From: Tubulanus polymorphus | Taxonomy: Eukaryota; Nemertea; Palaeonemertea; Tubulaniformes; Tubulanidae | NCBI RefSeq assembly: GCF_964204645.1 | Contig: NC_134025.1 | Location: 26,442,001-26,506,000 of the forward strand | Reading direction: 5' to 3' | DNA length: 64,000 nt | Shown here: positions 1,710-64,000 of the stretch, piece by piece | Position numbering within the stretch: the stretch's first letter is position 1 | Layout: every line of letters begins with the position of its first letter | Program-made: the position numbers and the translations under genes | Notes under the pieces: model-generated | Seen by the model: only the letters and a program-made list of their open reading frames with translations | What the model was told of the DNA's origin: nothing | Databases searched by the model: none

Positions 1710-11176
<9,467 letters not shown>

Positions 11177-40139: not shown

Positions 40140-40924
40140 TTTGTGATATTTTTGACAAATACAATCCCAGCACTGTAATACATGTGTCTCGCAGAGGATT
40201 TTTTAGAGGAAATTGAAGTCCCGGTTTTGTTGAAAAAATCGTCCCTAGTTCTCGTATTTTGCGTTAGCATTGCATTTGAACGTTTTGAAAATCGAAATTG
40301 ACTCGATAAAGCGACGATCCAGGAACTGACCCGATTCGCAAAAGTGTCTGCCTTGTATTTGTTAAAATTGTCTAGTATCGTGTAACAATGAATTGTTATT
40401 ACGTTAGTGTAAAACAAAATCTATGACGCAGATACACACACAAAAATGATGGGAAAAATACGATAAATTATAATTAAAATCATAATTTCACGGTACGTCA
40501 TTATTGCTCAGAAGGTCCCTTTGTGGAAGCTGAAATTCAATCAGTTTTTGAAATATTTTTCATAGAAATTGAGCTTTTGGTAGTATATGAGAAGAGTTTG
40601 TTTTATCAATCACTTTTGTGTGCGCAGTCTTGACTAATCCCGTATGAAACTCCTGATTATATAGTTAAATATACGTGTTTGTTTTTTCAATCCACATTTG
40701 TTATTTGTTATAATCAATTGTGTATTTTTATTGTATTCTTTGTTATGAAGTCGTTTTGGAGTCATAATGTTATAACTTCAAATCATGAACCATATGATTT
40801 AGAAGTGCTTTTTAGATGTCACCAACATGAAACAAATAACCCTCACATTTTATTCCCGAGTGTAGTTGACAGTCCAAAAGATAGTTTGCAAATAATCATG
40901 CCGCCGAAATTTATATATATAATT

Positions 40925-41199
<275 letters not shown>

Positions 41200-47337: not shown

Positions 47338-50300
47338 CTGGAATTAAATCAGTTCAAATTGCTAAAACTAACAGATAATAGGCTTTACAAGATTTATACG
47401 TGTAGTTTTAACTTACCCCAGGCCAGACATGTCGGATTTCAGGTCTCACCGCTGCATCCTCAGGTTCTTTATTTCCGAGCCAATGTTGTCTACTTCGATA
47501 AATAATGCCACAGCGTTTACACTCCAGCACATATCTATAAAATAATTCAAAAACTAACTGGTCATTATATCTACAAACTTAGCAAAGATGCAGAATAAGG
47601 CCAAAATATATACTGACCCTGACCAAGCGTATTTTGCCAAACCAAACCAGCTATTATCCTGCGCTGAATAAGATTTTGGCACGACAATCTCCTCTCGGCC
47701 GGCGTTAAAGCATTTCTGCAATGGAACGAATCTAATTGTATCAGCAATCAACACTCTTCAAGACAATGTACCCTTGTAGTAACTTTTTCGAATAAATGCT
47801 GGTTTACATACTTTGCAGATGTAAACTTTGTTATCATACTGATGTTGATATTTACATCGCATGTGAAGATCAGCTTCATGACTGAGATCATCTTTAAAAT
47901 GATTCATAGTTCTTGTACAGCGACAACTTTTTAAAAAGAAAATTCAGAACAATTCCTTCATAGCAATTACACACACTACATATCAGAATACAGGCTAACA
48001 CCAGCTAAGTCAAGTTACCCGCATGACAGACATCGAGAAGTACAAGTAAAATACTGATCTGGAAACATTTGCGGCACTGATTCTTCTATTTCACCAGAAA
48101 ATTTAGTATTGAGTACCTGCAATTGAACAATCACACGCAACACTGACTACTGTCGGCTAAAATAGTTTTCTATATCTTTCAAATAGTTTCCGAGTTCATA
48201 CGCACCTGCAAAGCGTTTAAAACAACTTGCGGGGTTCGAGGAGATCTGACTGTCATGTTTTTTAATTGATCTTTAGTAGCATGAAGAAGCTGACTGAAAT
48301 CAGTCGGAGGATGTATCGTTCTAGTACCGCAGTAATGAAGCGAGGAAAACGCATCCACGGCGATCTTCAGCGCTTGAAACCGGTCTTTCAGGACCTGAGT
48401 CGGTGTTTTGTGCGCTGGACTAGTATCACGCCCTGTATTCAAAAGTACTCAAAGTTTGAGAATAAACTTTATTAACCCTTTCAGTGCTGACTAATCAATA
48501 CCCTATTGTGCTGGAGATAATTTGAAAATTTTAAAAAATTCCACCCTAGTGTGTTGAATAACGGGAATACCACTACAATGCGTCTACACCGCGGCGCAGT
48601 GTATCGTTAGTTACTAGTATTTGACTATGTCTGACAGGTGCTGCCATTTTTCAAGAAATAATTACTAATTACTGATATCATCAATACACCGCATTGCGGT
48701 GTACTAGCAAAATCCATCACCGATTTGTACACCGCACTGCGGTGTAGATGCACTGAAAGGGTTAAGTAAATCGTCATTTTTCGGAAACTTAAGGACTTAC
48801 CTTCACAAAGAATGTCTGTATGGGTCGTTTCATGAAATATAATAACAGCCGGGCCTAATGTAGATAGAGGAACATCTAAATTTCTTCTTTTCGAAGCTTC
48901 TTTTAATTCGTTTGCGAAATGCTTCACGTAGGCTTTCGACGCATCGCCGAGAAAATGGAACAAGTCATTATGAAGTCGATCGGCTCTCGTACGATAAATA
49001 ATAACATCAGATATAGCCAACACCTTTAATAGTAAACGCGTACGCTGGTTCTGATTACCAGTAACACCCAACAAGCCTTCAGTGTCTATAACAATTGCGT
49101 TATGTACCGGATCGAGAGCCGCCCAAACTCCGACCGTACAAGAACTCTGACTCGGTGACGTTTTGAAAACTTCTTTTCCGCCGAAAAACGTATGATTTAA
49201 TGTATGCGATTTCCCATCACCGGTATTACCAAATATGGATACAACTTTATACACGAGTCCAGCTTCAGCTCCGAGTTTTTCCAAGAAATTTTCTTCATTT
49301 TCTACCTGAAAGATAGGAAAATTTGATTCAAATATTGATTTTTCAAACTTCAAATGTCATAGTATATAACATAGGCCCCGAAGACTGGGTCTGTAGTCTG
49401 TAGCAGCAAGGCCGAGGCAAAAGTCAGAGAATTCAGAGCCCAGTTCCCAGTGTGGATCCATGGTCCTCCAATTGACATTTCTAAAAATTAACATCCTCAG
49501 ATTCTATATCATTGTCTATCTGGCATTGAAACATTTATCATTATCCCCTATCTACACATTTACAGTAAAAGAACTTTTTTAAAGACTTTGAGGATTTTTG
49601 TTTTTAAAATAAGTGCTTTAGATATTTTACCAGATACCGCTACAAATACCCTGATGGAATCCATATTAACCTGCAGTTCTTCCTGATCATCGACGAGCAT
49701 GAAACTATGACAAGCAGCATAAGCATCCTCGGATAGAGAACTGTTCGTACAGTTTGTAATATCTGGTAAACTCGTCTGTCCGCTTGAGGTCGAATGAGTT
49801 GACATTCTATCTTGATCGTACAACGTAACGAATTTCAAATCTGACGAATAATCCATACAATCGTGATCGGCGTTTGAGACGCAGGATTCGGTTTTATTTG
49901 AACGACTCGTGCTAGGTTGTGGTTGGTTTTGAATAACAGTTTCGTTGAAATCGGCCGCGGTTTCGAAAGGGTTCGTGAGGCTCAAATCTAAATCGAGCGG
50001 CGACAGTTTTGAGACTCGTTCATCCAATTCGGGTGAAAATTCTTTCATCGCCTGTTCGAGTTCTTCGTTGCGCTTTTCCTTCGCACGCGCTGCTAGGAAT
50101 TCTTTGTATGACTGGCGCTTGTGACTTTTTCGACGTCCTTGGACGTGGATTTTTGAATCACACGAAAAACAGTAGTTTACTTCACATTCAACGCAGTGAA
50201 CATCGGCGTAGTTACGATCTTCGCATGACATTTGACATAACAAACTTTCAGGGGGTGGTTCCAGGCGTCTTCGTTCGTGGTGTAAAAATTTGGCAAAACT

Positions 50301-50453
50301 GTGCAATCTAGCATCACAAGCTGAACATTGAACTGTCTTACATTCTTCACACGTAAACGACGCCTCTGTCTTTAAACCAGTGCACGCGTACTTCTCCTGA
50401 CAGAATCGTTTCGATGTCTGGGTCTTCTGGATTCTTTTCGAGCCAGTCGACAT
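46201..50453 (-). CDS. ZFYVE1: ZFYVE1 / DFCP1, double FYVE domain-containing protein 1 (complete, 11 coding exons, 875 aa)
   Basis: PI3P-binding NTPase that marks omegasomes (ER sites of autophagosome formation), Golgi and lipid droplets. Coding exons in transcription order: 50453-49671, 49305-48801, 48432-48206, 48116-48019, 47926-47812, 47715-47618, 47534-47417, 47337-47167, 47077-46903, 46768-46664, 46433-46201 (TAA). All junctions are GT-AG and phases sum to 2628 bases. Domain order is two B-box-like Cys/His fingers (about residues 18-115), a P-loop NTPase (GNTGDGKS at 287-294, DTEG at 335-338), a Cys-rich middle region, then FYVE 1 (about 694-762) and FYVE 2 (about 806-872). Similarity to human ZFYVE1 (777 aa) is continuous; the extra length is mostly a Ser-rich stretch between the fingers and the NTPase. 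Intron 2 holds a MITE. Confidence 0.97.
47417..48432 (-). CDS. ZFYVE1: ZFYVE1 exons 3-7: linker and Cys-rich middle region
   Basis: Exons 48432-48206, 48116-48019, 47926-47812, 47715-47618 and 47534-47417 encode DRFQALKIAVDAFSSLHYCG, the FPDQYFTCTSRCLSCG segment, CKYQHQYDNKVYICKKCF, SWFGLAKYAWSGYVLECKRC and RSRQHWLGNKEPEDAAVRPE. Paired CxxC motifs suggest an extra zinc-binding module between the NTPase and the FYVE domains, also present in human. The shortest intron is 83 bases. Confidence 0.92.
48472..48765. mobile_element. piggyBac-type MITE in ZFYVE1 intron 2
   Basis: TTAA (48472-48475) and TTAA (48762-48765) flank a 286-base element with perfect 12-base terminal inverted repeats, CCCTTTCAGTGC at 48476-48487 and its complement GCACTGAAAGGG at 48750-48761. 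TTAA target duplication plus a CCC start is the piggyBac hallmark. The inside carries several hairpin-forming copies of TACACCGC..GCGGTGTA and no coding capacity. It lies wholly between exons 2 and 3. Confidence 0.8.
48801..49305 (-). CDS. ZFYVE1: ZFYVE1 exon 2: P-loop NTPase domain
   Basis: The acceptor TATCTTTCAG precedes VENEENFLEKLG, and the exon ends at GAAG|GTAAGT. It carries KVVSIFGNTGDGKSHTLNHT, the Walker A motif of a septin/dynamin-like NTPase, then TVGVWAA, VIDTEGLLG and RTRLLLKVLAISDVIIYRT. Lys and Ser of Walker A and the Asp of DTEG are intact, so nucleotide binding should be preserved. This is the most conserved part of the protein. Confidence 0.96.
49671..50453 (-). CDS. ZFYVE1: ZFYVE1 exon 1: B-box-like zinc fingers and low-complexity linker
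   Basis: This 261-codon exon runs from ATG 50453 to the donor CTGCAG|GTTAAT. Finger 1 follows CQEKYAC...CEEC..VQCSACDARLH; finger 2 follows CQMSCED...HCVECEVNYCFSCDSKIH. A basic segment (GRRKSHKRQSYKEFLAARAK) and then about 130 acidic, Ser/Thr-rich residues lead to SFMLVDDQEELQ, which matches the human SFLLVDENEEIQ just before the NTPase fold. The linker is much longer than in human. Confidence 0.93.
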
Positions 50454-50540
50454 AACAATCCGGCGTGGTAAAATGGCGTTTTTAATCGAAAAGATTGTGA
50501 AATTTCGTGAATTTCAACCCAGCCATCGCTTAGTCACGAC

Positions 50541-51278: not shown

Positions 51279-51473
51279 CTTTAAGTTGATGAGATTTGTT
51301 GTATTGTCTTGATTAGATTAAGTTTCTTGAATCTTAAGAAATTCCTTCTAGGTAATTTATCCAGGAGTTCTAGGAAGACTTGACAACAGATCTAACAGCG
51401 ATCTTTGTTGAGAGATTTCTAGGAAAACATAGGCCTATGTAGTAAGTGACTTAGCAGCATCGAACTGGCAATC

Positions 51474-52826
51474 ATGGAAAAGAAAAAATCTTCATTCCAC
51501 GATTACCTCCGTCGTCGTGAATCGAGGGATGATACAGGCGAGGAAATGGCGCGGTGTTTAGAATTGCACGACGCAATTGTCAGAAATGAACCACGAACAG
51601 TAGAACGGCTTGTATCGAATGGGATGAATGTAAATTCGGGACTGCACTTTGCAAATCATAGCTATACACCAGATAGAACCCTCATTTCACGAGATATCAT
51701 CGCACTTCCTCTTCATGTTGCCTGCATTTATCGCCGTCCCAGAATAGTCGAGGTCTTGTTGAAATGCGGGGCCGATTACAACACGAAGGACTACTACGGA
51801 CGGACACCAATCCAGCTGGTGATCCATTACTGGCCAAGGCTCATGCACTCAACCGATTACAAAAACCTAACCAAGGCTGATATCGAGTATCAAGAATATC
51901 TGAGGAGTCAGCACGAAAAATGTCACCGCAGTCTCGAATTACTTTGCTCCCATGGAGCTGTGATTGACGATGCAGTAAATGCGGATAGAGAGACCGTGGT
52001 GCACCTTGCAGCAAAATTTAACATCTGGAGAAGCATCGCTCTACTGGTTGCGCACGGCACAGAAAAAATCTTGGAGACACGAGATCTTTACGGTAAGGAA
52101 TATGTGCAGCTGTTATTCTAGCTATCTTGCATGAATAGGCTTTGGGAGTTCATGAGAAAACGTTTTATTTTGATTAAAGGTAATACGCCAGTCCTGACTG
52201 CGAGTAAATATGGTAGGTTTGAGGTGCTACGCGAGATGTTATCGCACGGAGCAATGGTCGATGCTACCGAAAATTCCGGCAAGAATATTCTCCATTTTGC
52301 CGCTTACAGCGACACTACGCCGCACGCCACCGAGGTAGCGAGTTTACTCAAAGACCAACGGATCTCACTGATGATAAATTCCACGGACAAAAATCTAGAG
52401 ACTGCTTTGCATATCGCTGCTCGAAACGGACGAGAAGCGATAATTCATGTTCTCCTTGAAAAGGGAGCTAATCCCGATTTATTAAACGTACAGGCTTTGT
52501 CACCGTTATACCTGCTTTTAGATGACGTCGACCATTCGCAGTTTATTTGCACCATCGACAAGTTGATAAACGAAACGACACAGTTATCCGTATACAGCTC
52601 TACGCACGAACTGCCGAAACTGCTGAATCTCGCGGAGAACGAGTCCCTGAGAGATTATCTGGTGATATCGTCGACGTCGCCGACGTCGCTTCAATTTATC
52701 TGTCGACAAAAGATCAGACGGTGCTTGGGTAAATTGAGAATTAATACGCCGTTTATAGATCAGCTGCCGTGTCCCAGAAAAATGAAAAACTATATTTTAC
52801 TCAACAATATCAAATTAGTGCAATGA
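51474..52826 (+). CDS. ANKRD61: ANKRD61-like ankyrin-repeat protein with C-terminal SOCS box (2 exons, 421 aa)
   Basis: Exon 51474-52092 (phase 1 at TACG|GTAAGG) joins 52180-52826 across an 87-base intron. Ankyrin repeats are plain: IIALPLHVACIYRRPRIVEV, ETVVHLAAKFNIWRSIALLV, NTPVLTASKYGRFEVLREML, KNILHFAAYSD and ETALHIAARNGREAIIHVLL. The order, length (human about 418 aa) and interrupted first repeats match ANKRD61. The C-terminus (about 376-415) reads SLQFICRQKIRRCLG...LPCPRKMKNYIL, a SOCS box with an elongin-BC motif (LxxxCxxxI) and a Cul5-type LPxP, so an E3-ligase substrate-receptor role, as in ASB proteins, is inferred. Substrate unknown. An ASB-family name is the main alternative. Confidence 0.85.
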
Positions 52827-54455: not shown

Positions 54456-55130
54456 CTAATCCAGTTTTGGACGATTTGATCTATTGTTATTTACAACCTG
54501 AGATGTGTTATTCGCCAGGACAGACGACGGCGAAGGGCAAACTTCGCTGTTGGAAGTTTCTCGGTGTTGCAGTATTAACTGCGCAATTCCGTTCATCGAC
54601 GATTGAACTAAAATACACAAAGCACTGAACAATTCCTTTAACTTGTGTTTGAAGAAACTCAGCAGCGAGTTCAGTTGGTAAATAATCCAAGATTGCCACA
54701 TCATCTGTTTGTGGATTTCGGAGCACATTTGTTCAGCGAGAAACGTAGCCGTCTTCACGTCTGTCGACAAATCCACGGCCAAATCTCCGTCGTTCGTTTT
54801 TATGAATAAATTTCCCCCAAATAGAAGCAGAAAACTGGCGACGAGAATGAAACCACAACCCGCGGCTGCATGTAATGGCGTTACTCCGTGTATATCCTGC
54901 ATATTAACATCGGCACCGTAGCAAAGAAGGATTTTTACAGCGTCCAAATTGTTTGCTAGAACACCTTGATGTAGCGCAGTTAATCCTACGTGATTTTTCT
55001 GATTGATGTTTATATCCGTACCTGACTCTAAAATCCTCAGCAGCTCCATTATATCCCCTTCCTGTACAACTGCATGTAGCACAGCGTCAGCAGGGAAACT
55101 TATCCGCCTTTTTAGTTGAGATGTCGACAT
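54456..55130 (-). CDS. PPP1R27-like ankyrin protein, probable PP1 regulatory subunit (224 aa)
   Basis: This is a single coding exon from ATG 55130 to TAG 54456. Residues 7-12 (KRRISF) fit the RVxF docking motif for protein phosphatase 1. They are followed by PADAVLHAVVQEGDIMELLR and ankyrin repeats LTALHQGVLANNLDAVKILL, VTPLHAAAGCGFILVASFLL, then NDGDLAVDLS. The layout 'basic-RxxF, FP-AV, two to three ankyrins, DGDL-x-DL' is that of PPP1R27 and of MYPT/PPP1R12-16 N-termini. Vertebrate PPP1R27 (about 154 aa) ends soon after; here about 90 residues follow, including hydrophobic amphipathic helices (WIIYQLNSLLSFFKHKLKEL). An acceptor-like TTTTTAGCATTTAG abuts the ATG, so a 5' UTR intron is possible. 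Confidence 0.82.
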   Translation of the reverse strand: MSTSQLKRRISFPADAVLHAVVQEGDIMELLRILESGTDININQKNHVGLTALHQGVLANNLDAVKILLCYGADVNMQDIHGVTPLHAAAGCGFILVASFLLLFGGNLFIKTNDGDLAVDLSTDVKTATFLAEQMCSEIHKQMMWQSWIIYQLNSLLSFFKHKLKELFSALCILVQSSMNGIAQLILQHRETSNSEVCPSPSSVLANNTSQVVNNNRSNRPKLD

Positions 55131-61696: not shown

Positions 61697-62493
61697 TAGA
61701 AGCAGAGAGATAGTCATAGTTTGTGGTTACCCTTCATCTTTAGAAAATATAATATAGAATATTTACAATGAACTCATATTTTATGACGCGGTTTTATAGG
61801 TTATGATACTAATCATATGATTGTAGTTTGCCTTATTACTGTAACTGGCAATGTATATTGATGGGACCAGGGTTGAATAGTCGATTCAACCCTCCAGGTT
61901 TCAGTAAAAAGTGCTTAACGTCAGCCCCCAGTTAAGTGACAGTACACACCAACGTATAGTCGAGACTTAAGTAAATCCGTCGTTTTTTGCTAATGGCAAC
62001 TTTATCTATACTAGATCCATTATATTAGCACGATTACTGGAGGGGAATTCTAATAGTATACTGTTCCAGTATACTACTTAATGACAGAGTTGCACACGGG
62101 GTCGGAAATGGCTATTTTTTACTCACTTCATTCCATTACTTTTCAGTCGTTTTAGAAAACACCTCACCTTTGCCATAGTCTGACCAGATTACTGTGTGTA
62201 TTTGGGAAATTACATAACTGTGTGGACTTGATGTGGTGATATTTGCATCAAAAATTTGACCGAATTGACTGATATAAGATATGAACATTGCTTGATCGAT
62301 GGAGGGAAAGCTTTGTTGACCTTACGTATTGTATTTACCAGTAATACAATGTCCCGGGAACATCTCGTGAGACATTTTCTTTGCGTATGGTCAGATCATG
62401 TTCATTGGTCGTCACTAAAACTGGTCAAAACCCTGGATTTATGCAAATCCGTACAAACGAATAAACAAATGATAAGTAAATAATCTGGGGGTT

Positions 62494-63065
62494 CTATCGT
62501 TTTTTCATTTTGAAGCCCCCTTTCCGCTTTTTTATTCCACCAGATTTTTTCATTCCACCCATTTTTTTCTTCGTAGCAGGTGATTTCGATCTGGATCGAC
62601 TGCCAGCCTTTGATCTGGGTGATCTTGGGCTTTTAGTGCTTCTCGGTGACTTCGATTTCGATCTGGACTTTTTGTTGGGGGATTTCGATCTGGACTTCTT
62701 ATCGGGGGATTTCGATCTGGACTTTTTATCACGGGATTTTGATTTTGATTTCTTATCAGGAGATTTTGATTGTTTATCTTTAGATTTAGAGTCTTTTTTG
62801 TTTTTTCTATCGGATGATTGTTCATGTTTTTCTTTACGCGATTTTCGTTCATCTTTGCCCTGTTTATTTTTCGATGATTTCTCTTTCTCTTTATTTTTCC
62901 GGTCATTTTTATCCTTGTCTTTACTTTCTTTTTCTTTGCCCTTTTCTTTTTCTTTCTTCTTTGATTTCTCTTCGGGTTGGAGCCCAGAACCCTGACCTTG
63001 ACCCTCTTCTTGTCCAAAGCTTTCCATGTTTCCAGCTTCGCCAACATCGTCCCAGACTCCGTGAC
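62494..63065 (-). CDS. Last exon of the tetraspanin gene: KE/KS/KSP-rich extension
   Basis: This 572-base exon is open throughout. Its layout is an acidic start (HGVWDDVGEAGNMESFGQEE), a K/E/D block (KKKEKEKGKEKESKDKDK), a K/S/D block, tandem nine-residue units of the type KSRSKSPDK, then RSPRS repeats and a basic Gly/Lys end (KKMGGMKKSGGIKKRKGG). The composition resembles neurofilament KSP tails and SR-type proteins and predicts a disordered, heavily phosphorylatable polycation. If the splice to 63313 were wrong, it would be the end of a separate Lys-rich gene, but no other start fits as well. Confidence 0.7.
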
Positions 63066-64000
63066 CTGAAAATTCAGATGTTCTTTTATTCCACAGCTTT
63101 CGGATACTACGAGACATTTCGTAACACGAATAAATCCGATGATAAACTAACGATGCCGATAAGCGTATCATGTCTAATTTATCATGATTTCGTCTGAGTT
63201 AATCGTCTTCTATATAATCAAATGGGTATTCGCCTGTTACATCTCAAACATATCAAAATATATAGTTCGACTTTCCGTGTAATGATAGCGCTATACGTGC
63301 TCTAATACGAACCTTCATCGACGTCATCGAAATTATTTCCTCCTCCGCCGGTTTCAGCGCCATCTTCTGCTAGTAACGGTTCATTATACTCGTCATCGTA
63401 ATCTTGTAGAGTATTCATGGGCTGGTAGCTACAACATGGTAATCGCTCGAGCAACCAGCCAGGTGCTGAAGCACTCACGTTGCCTTTGTCAACAGCATTT
63501 TTTATTGATGTACGGAGATATTGGGCTAAGATAATCATTATCAACTGAAACACGAACATATCGTACGCTCATTGCCGTTTACATATATATCCACAGTAAA
63601 TCCTTTTCCATCATAATTATTCTAATCATGATACACGCAAATTCAAAGTGAATCTGATTAACGCCTATACAATAGTAATTTCAATTCATTCAATATGAAA
63701 TTGAAATTTGACATTTAAAATTGAATTAGCAGTTTTAATTTGATTTGTTGTAATTGGTTATAATGATACTCACATTAAAAGCCCAGATAATTAAGACGAG
63801 AATGCCGCTGGGTTTCAAGATTATTTTCTCTAAGTGATTTCGAAGTGCGTCGGCGCATCCAGTTTTGTACAAAGTGACTGATGTATATTTCTTGCCGTGT
63901 AGAGATTTATTGCGAACGAAACGATCAACGCACGGTCGCATCGAACTCGGGTCACAACAACTGAACGGTACGTGGTCGAGAAAAACCTCGTCGTGTTTCA
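62494..64000 (-). CDS. Peripherin-like tetraspanin with Lys/Ser-rich KSP tail (3' part; runs off the window)
   Basis: Three exons, 64000-63774 (incomplete 5'), 63544-63313 and 63065-62494 (TAG). Exon 1 holds the end of the large extracellular loop (VPFSCCDPSSMRPCVDRF, with the CC motif and paired Cys of tetraspanins; closest in wording to peripherin/ROM1). It then begins the last membrane helix, ILVLIIWAFN, which continues as LIMIILAQYL in exon 2. Exon 2 then gives an acidic cytoplasmic tail (PCCSYQPMNTLQDYDDEYNE...). Its donor GAAG|GTTCGT (phase 1) joins the acceptor GAATTTTCAG to make DVDEGHGVWDD and about 190 more residues dominated by Lys, Ser and Arg. Reading through the donor instead gives DEGSY-stop at 63302. 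The family call is firm; the tail junction is inferred from phase and splice signals. Confidence 0.85.
62646..62772 (-). repeat. Coding 27-bp minisatellite in the tetraspanin tail exon
   Basis: About four imperfect 27-base units (core on + strand GGGGATTTCGATCTGGACTT) encode KSRSKSPDK-type nonapeptides on the minus strand. Unit length divisible by three keeps the frame, so copy number could vary between alleles without breaking the protein. Confidence 0.7.

Follow-up and report, generated by a model that had tools for sequence, protein, structure and literature searches.

Among solved structures, the best match of the gene reported here is peripherin-2 (PRPH2, rds), which shapes the discs of photoreceptors and, like ROM1, is a tetraspanin of the disc rim in vertebrates. 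The short tail of PRPH2 is presented in two papers as a site of targeting and membrane remodelling (PMC9645710, PMC3544770), with an amphipathic helix at residues 312-321 (PMC9645710) and with V332 inside a targeting region (PMC3544770). The disulfides of its EC2 are given in PMC9645710, and that paper and another describe C150 as the free or oligomer-forming cysteine that makes an intermolecular disulfide (PMC9645710, PMC8758146). The intron positions of the human gene can be read from the names of two variants: c.582-1G>A and c.828+3A>T place introns at c.581/582 and after c.828, which corresponds to codon 194 in phase 2 and codon 276 in phase 0. Exon 2 of PRPH2 encodes the part that corresponds to exon 2 of the gene described below (PMC4722987). 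In vertebrate discs, the GARP proteins, which CNGB1 encodes, have been put forward as connectors of the rims; for the connectors that they see, the authors of one study report no direct contact with the rim scaffold (PMC8758146). A survey of the family counts RDS/peripherin among 12 tetraspanin lineages that are shared with deuterostomes among the invertebrates; the lineages for which it names reliable orthologues in protostomes are three others (PMC2965184).

The 3' part of a gene related to PRPH2 lies on the minus strand at the right end of the window, by which we mean the whole stretch of 64,000 nucleotides that was analysed; the remainder of the gene was taken from adjoining sequence of the same genome. 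The resulting tetraspanin model has four exons separated by introns of 178, 229 and 247 nt. Its long product, from exons 1-4, would comprise 534 aa, and the product of reading through the third donor 347 aa. The initial annotation of this DNA had placed the end of exon 3 at 63313 (phase 1), the start of exon 4 at 63065, its stop at 62494 and a DEGSY-stop end at 63302, and all of these exons, phases and coordinates recur in the complete model. The features are as follows, in window numbering.

64752-64184, past the window end, minus strand: exon 1, from adjoining genomic sequence
64005-63774 (in the window 63774..64000; the start lies 5 bases outside), minus strand: exon 2, distal EC2 loop, whose cysteines lie in SCC, RPC and TGC, plus the first half of membrane helix 4
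63545..63773, minus strand: intron 2 (229 nt, phase 0), matching in position intron 2 of PRPH2, which follows codon 276
63313..63544, minus strand: exon 3, encoding the remaining half of membrane helix 4, then GWLLE, CC and an acidic tail to FDDVDE and the G at the splice point
63066..63312, minus strand: intron 3 of the putative long form, 247 nt, donor GAAG/GTTCGT (slash, splice point)
62494..63065, minus strand: probable exon 4, which begins acidic (WDDVGE) and continues through a Lys/Glu block and KSP/RS repeats to a basic C-terminal KMKKR and the stop
63302..63312, minus strand: end of the read-through (retained-intron) form, DEGSY-stop
63199..63233, minus strand: candidate alternative terminal exon, in-phase acceptor, GEYPFDYIEDD and then a stop
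63085..63090, minus strand: AATAAA, possible poly(A) signal of the short forms, weak (chance 0.29)
62654..62770, minus strand: 27-bp repeat array encoding [QKR]SKS[PR][DN]KKS units
62438..62443, minus strand: CATAAA, 51 nt past the exon 4 stop, a possible poly(A) signal of variant form

That this gene is an animal tetraspanin of the PRPH2/ROM1 (RDS) clade is strongly supported by its predicted protein and by its introns. The 347-aa form matches the Pfam family Tetraspanin (PF00335) at 8.3e-25, with 88.2 bits against a cut-off of 32.1 and with positions 4-222 of the 225 in the profile covered, and the CCG motif is present in its EC2. Among solved structures, the 347-aa core finds PRPH2 with an E value of 1.2e-46 and ROM1 with 2.3e-21, the next being TSPAN15 with 5.9e-8. 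The window portion of the gene on its own, with exon 4 attached, reaches 26.9 bits, below the Pfam cut-off, and matches PRPH2 at 9.8e-16. Identity to PRPH2 is 31% (92 of 299 aligned positions). Intron 1 splits residue 190 in phase 2, and this residue aligns with D194 of PRPH2; intron 2 follows residue 267 in phase 0, aligned with E276, so that PRPH2 has both of its intron positions, and their phases, in common with the window gene. VPFSCC, RPC and GWLLE are likewise found in both proteins. The six structural EC2 cysteines (165, 166, 213, 214, 222 and 250 of PRPH2) are all in the window protein, which matches six of the seven EC2 cysteines in total. A difference lies in the loop of C150, which is absent here: five columns around position 150 are empty in both the window protein and the paralogue discussed below; the solved PRPH2 chain in that alignment shows Ser at 150. 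The peripherin-like identity, first proposed from the end of the gene, now extends across the whole of it, on the strength of the PRPH2 match at 1.2e-46 and the two conserved intron positions. Gamma-tubulin complex components also appeared as candidate relatives of the core, at E values of 0.027 to 0.16 only, and were taken as chance.

The tail is a different matter. Similarity to PRPH2 stops one residue after GWLLE, where the window tail begins with RLPCCSYQPMN. The tail of PRPH2 after GWLLE has 37 residues (346 minus 309), whereas that of the putative long form has 234, and intron 3 and exon 4 of the window gene are extra in comparison with PRPH2. These 234 residues divide into 75 with a net charge of -17, followed by 159 with a net charge of +50. 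Exon 4 itself would contribute 190 residues, of which 71 are basic and 27 acidic (K 56, S 35, R 15, E 15, D 12). It opens with an acidic start (GHGVWDDVGEAGNMESFGQEEGQ...), continues with a Lys/Glu/Asp block of 67 residues (net +13), and then turns into a Lys/Ser/Arg block of 92 residues (net +37) with 24 serines and the KSP repeats. Six of its seven SP dipeptides are KSP, and the DNA contains a tandem array of 4.3 copies of a 27-bp unit. The description of this tail as a polycation of about 190 residues holds for the length of the exon; the polycationic character is confined to the last 159 residues, the first 31 not sharing it and the first 20 having a net charge of -5. Its composition leads one to expect a disordered, basic long tail that phosphorylation could tune. 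The KSP tails of neurofilament proteins and the RS domains of SR proteins are rich in KSP or RS and can be phosphorylated; the likeness of exon 4 to them is one of composition only, and a Pfam search with the exon 4 frame at E values up to 1 returned no family. The DASH subunit DAD2, considered as a relative of the tail at 0.39, was taken as chance. When the exon 4 protein was searched against the genome, which comprises 267.8 Mb in 77 contigs, at E values up to 0.1 and with the 96 best candidates scored, there was a single match, namely exon 4 itself; as only the best candidates were scored, this does not prove its absence elsewhere. KxKxx is a pattern of ER retrieval. KMKKR at the C-terminus was considered as such a signal, and KKxx or KxKxx occurs in 25% of shuffles of the last 30 residues, so no claim is made for it.

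How unusual is a long tail in this genome? A search of the genome with the Tetraspanin profile gave 26 exon-level matches. Seven of the loci with profile matches were scanned for long frames, from which one further tetraspanin frame was recovered, and tails were read in the window gene and in two others. One of these two came from a search with the 152-aa protein of window exons 2-3 at E values up to 1, which returned three matches: exons 2 and 3 themselves, and a further copy that lies on contig C7 (E 3.7e-17). This copy (C7:17730898-17731674, minus strand) encodes 409 aa, is intronless as far as it was read, and is 29% identical to the window protein over 342 aligned columns; it looks like an old retrocopy or a paralogue that has lost its introns. 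Its tail carries FDDIDE and runs on past it to a length of 106 residues with a net charge of -1, without the Lys/Glu block or the KSP repeat array of the window gene. The other intronless tetraspanin (C9:13710764-13711462, minus strand) has a tail of 161 residues, also with a net charge of -1. The view, taken in the initial annotation, that tetraspanin tails are normally short therefore needs qualifying for this genome, since tails of 106 and 161 residues mean that long tails are not unique to the window gene. Among the three tails read, only that of the window gene is polycationic with a KSP repeat array. As separate observations, the tail of the C7 paralogue contains a polyproline stretch, and at a locus beside that paralogue (L006:2-259, minus strand) there is a frame with a secreted-like start (MSNTGWIVCILTLFIVSSSA) and a run of 14 aspartates, which extends off the locus.

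We infer that exon 4 is joined to exon 3, and that the long tail probably, though not certainly, belongs to the tetraspanin gene, from the matching phase of the two exons (a 1 in 3 event by chance) and from an echo across the junction: FDDVDE at the end of exon 3 is answered by WDDVGE at the start of exon 4, and acidity spans the junction. When the first 25 residues of exon 4 are shuffled, DDVxE arises in a fraction of 0.0011, in a test that was picked post hoc. The donor of intron 3 is weak, with a matrix score of 1.39 where donor 1 has 3.44 and donor 2 has 3.87, and is within the top 6.3% of the 476 GT sites on the minus strand of the 10-kb locus. The acceptor at 63065 is unremarkable; 42% of the AGs in 10 kb score equally well. 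The exact acceptor of exon 4 is uncertain, since two other in-phase acceptors, 63146 and 62969, outscore it slightly (11 against 10), and both open into the exon 4 frame.

Fourteen acceptors between 63290 and 62969 would keep the phase, and one of them would give the gene a second kind of ending. Splicing to 63233, within intron 3, would add GEYPFDYIEDD and a stop, and splicing to 63242 the same end with three more residues. GEYPFDYIEDD is a third copy of the aromatic-Asp theme. A short acidic peptide of this kind, defined as at least 9 aa with at least 5/11 Asp/Glu (a criterion fixed after GEYPFDYIEDD had been seen), arose in 0.0015 of 4000 simulated introns and in none of 1778 GT-starting stretches of neighbouring real sequence. 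AATAAA is also found in intron 3, at a place where it could serve the short forms; it is expected by chance in 0.29 of such introns and is not significant alone. Between the exon 4 stop and 61200, a stretch that holds the CATAAA listed above, AATAAA was not found. Taken together, the anatomy of the gene suggests alternative terminal exons that share one common weak donor and lead to a short acidic or a long basic end. It had been proposed earlier that retention of intron 3, ending at DEGSY-stop, could switch the tail off. The switch itself is plausible; plain retention is the less likely form of it, because the acceptor at 63233 with its in-phase GEYPFDYIEDD-stop makes a switch between a short and a long tail the likelier one.

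Any reading with a long tail depends on exon 4 being coding, which is probably the case, in the KSP frame and with modest signs of constraint at the protein level. An open frame of the length of exon 4 appears in a fraction of 0.0006 of 5000 order-1 Markov copies of the exon, and the repeats have diverged in a manner that is consistent with coding: in the four in-register units (62772-62665), 9 of the 14 base changes between adjacent units affect the third position of a codon (P 0.017), and among the 12 altered codons 7 are synonymous (P 0.016 in a placement test). With the out-of-register fifth unit added, third-position changes become 14 of 28 and the bias drops to P 0.050, so the coding signal derived from the repeats is modest. 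It could be argued from the same weakening that exon 4 is a noncoding, purine-rich repeat in which the scarcity of T keeps frames open; 50% of its main part is A, and a second frame across it (62550-63146, minus strand, 198 codons) is open as well. Set against the in-register bias, the synonymous excess and the low chance of the open frame, we regard this noncoding reading as very improbable. A donor-like site at 63479 in exon 3 (phase 0, score 3.07, hence stronger than donor 3) that would lead into the second frame was rejected: using it would cost the protein its conserved GWLLE, and the KSP frame is mildly favoured by the differences among repeats.

Two further explanations accept a coding exon 4 and dispute its place. 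The tetraspanin could have short acidic tails only (GEYPFDYIEDD-stop or DEGSY-stop) and end at the AATAAA at 63090, with exon 4 being a separate small gene for a basic protein. Such a gene would use the exon 4 frame, which is open upstream to 63198 and contains Met codons there, the first at about 63171. The weakness of donor 3, the position of the AATAAA between the short-form stop and exon 4, and the improbability of the short acidic end would all fit with this. However, the base composition shifts near the exon 4 acceptor, so that 63198-63067 (A 0.33, T 0.32) is unlike the main part of exon 4 (A 0.50); DDVxE and acidity carry across the junction; the phases match; and some 250 bp would have to accommodate a promoter, unless this overlapped the tetraspanin gene. 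We consider a separate gene unlikely. The opposite explanation is that exon 4 is constitutive and the long form the sole product, the short ends being splicing noise or chance, and the intronless C7 paralogue, whose tail likewise extends past FDD[VI]DE, speaks in its favour. It does not sit well with so weak a donor, nor with an acidic end that is so improbable by chance (0.0015; 0/1778), and it too seems to us rather doubtful. The reading that we prefer, and to which we give about an even chance of being right, is that of a PRPH2/ROM1-clade tetraspanin with alternative tails, either short and acidic (from 63233 or through DEGSY-stop) or a long polycation (from 63065), all of them from the weak donor at 63313.

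For a tetraspanin with alternative tails, the following mechanism may be considered. By homology, the core would oligomerise into dimers and bent oligomers and bend the membrane as PRPH2 does. The long tail would be basic when unphosphorylated, and proline-directed or SR-type kinases acting at its many serines could neutralise it. It might bind acidic partners over the cytosolic gap, be it the facing membrane, microtubules or the acidic tails of neighbouring molecules, and would then be a built-in electrostatic spacer or tether on the cytosolic face. This tether mechanism is a conjecture, and probably not the right one in our estimate. The wider scheme is similarly speculative, and we consider it unlikely: a membrane-bending tetraspanin of the peripherin clade would be toggled, by its weak donor and by the competition of acceptors on either side of a poly(A) signal, between a short acidic tail and a phosphorylatable polycation of about 190 residues, the long form would supply in cis a charged spacer for which vertebrate disc rims are proposed to rely on separate GARP proteins, and splicing and phosphorylation would set the spacing of membranes.

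There is a known element with which such a tail can be compared. The GARP part of CNGB1 and GARP2 are partners rich in glutamic acid that have been proposed at PRPH2 rims, and are described as a partly disordered and highly charged element proposed at disc rims (PMC8758146); the likeness to the window tail is a functional analogy only. GARP2 and the GARP part of CNGB1 are separate, acidic proteins, whereas the window tail is basic and encoded within the tetraspanin, and no homology is claimed. In our literature searches on long or Lys-rich tetraspanin tails and on invertebrate peripherin, nothing evidently pertinent was found, an absence that we claim for those searches only. If the preferred reading is true, this relative of PRPH2 has kept the core and introns and carries in addition a long charged tail, perhaps a switchable one. 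It would then help to identify the ancestral parts of the rim machinery, and would amount to a natural experiment on the role of the tail. It also makes a precise prediction, that of competing splice junctions from the single donor at 63313.

Several other features were observed elsewhere in the window. On the minus strand, 48625-50513 contains an ANCHR-like B-box (1.7e-7) and a GTPase domain of the guanylate-binding-protein type just under the cut-off, possibly in one gene. On the plus strand, 51450-52826 encodes ankyrin repeats followed by a SOCS box (1.4e-9), a frame which we take to be ASB-like, and an ankyrin-repeat frame (Ank_4, 1.8e-14) is found at 54456-55130 on the minus strand. The window also includes long AT/TA dinucleotide arrays at 8050-8199 (75 copies) and 40912-41195 (143 copies).
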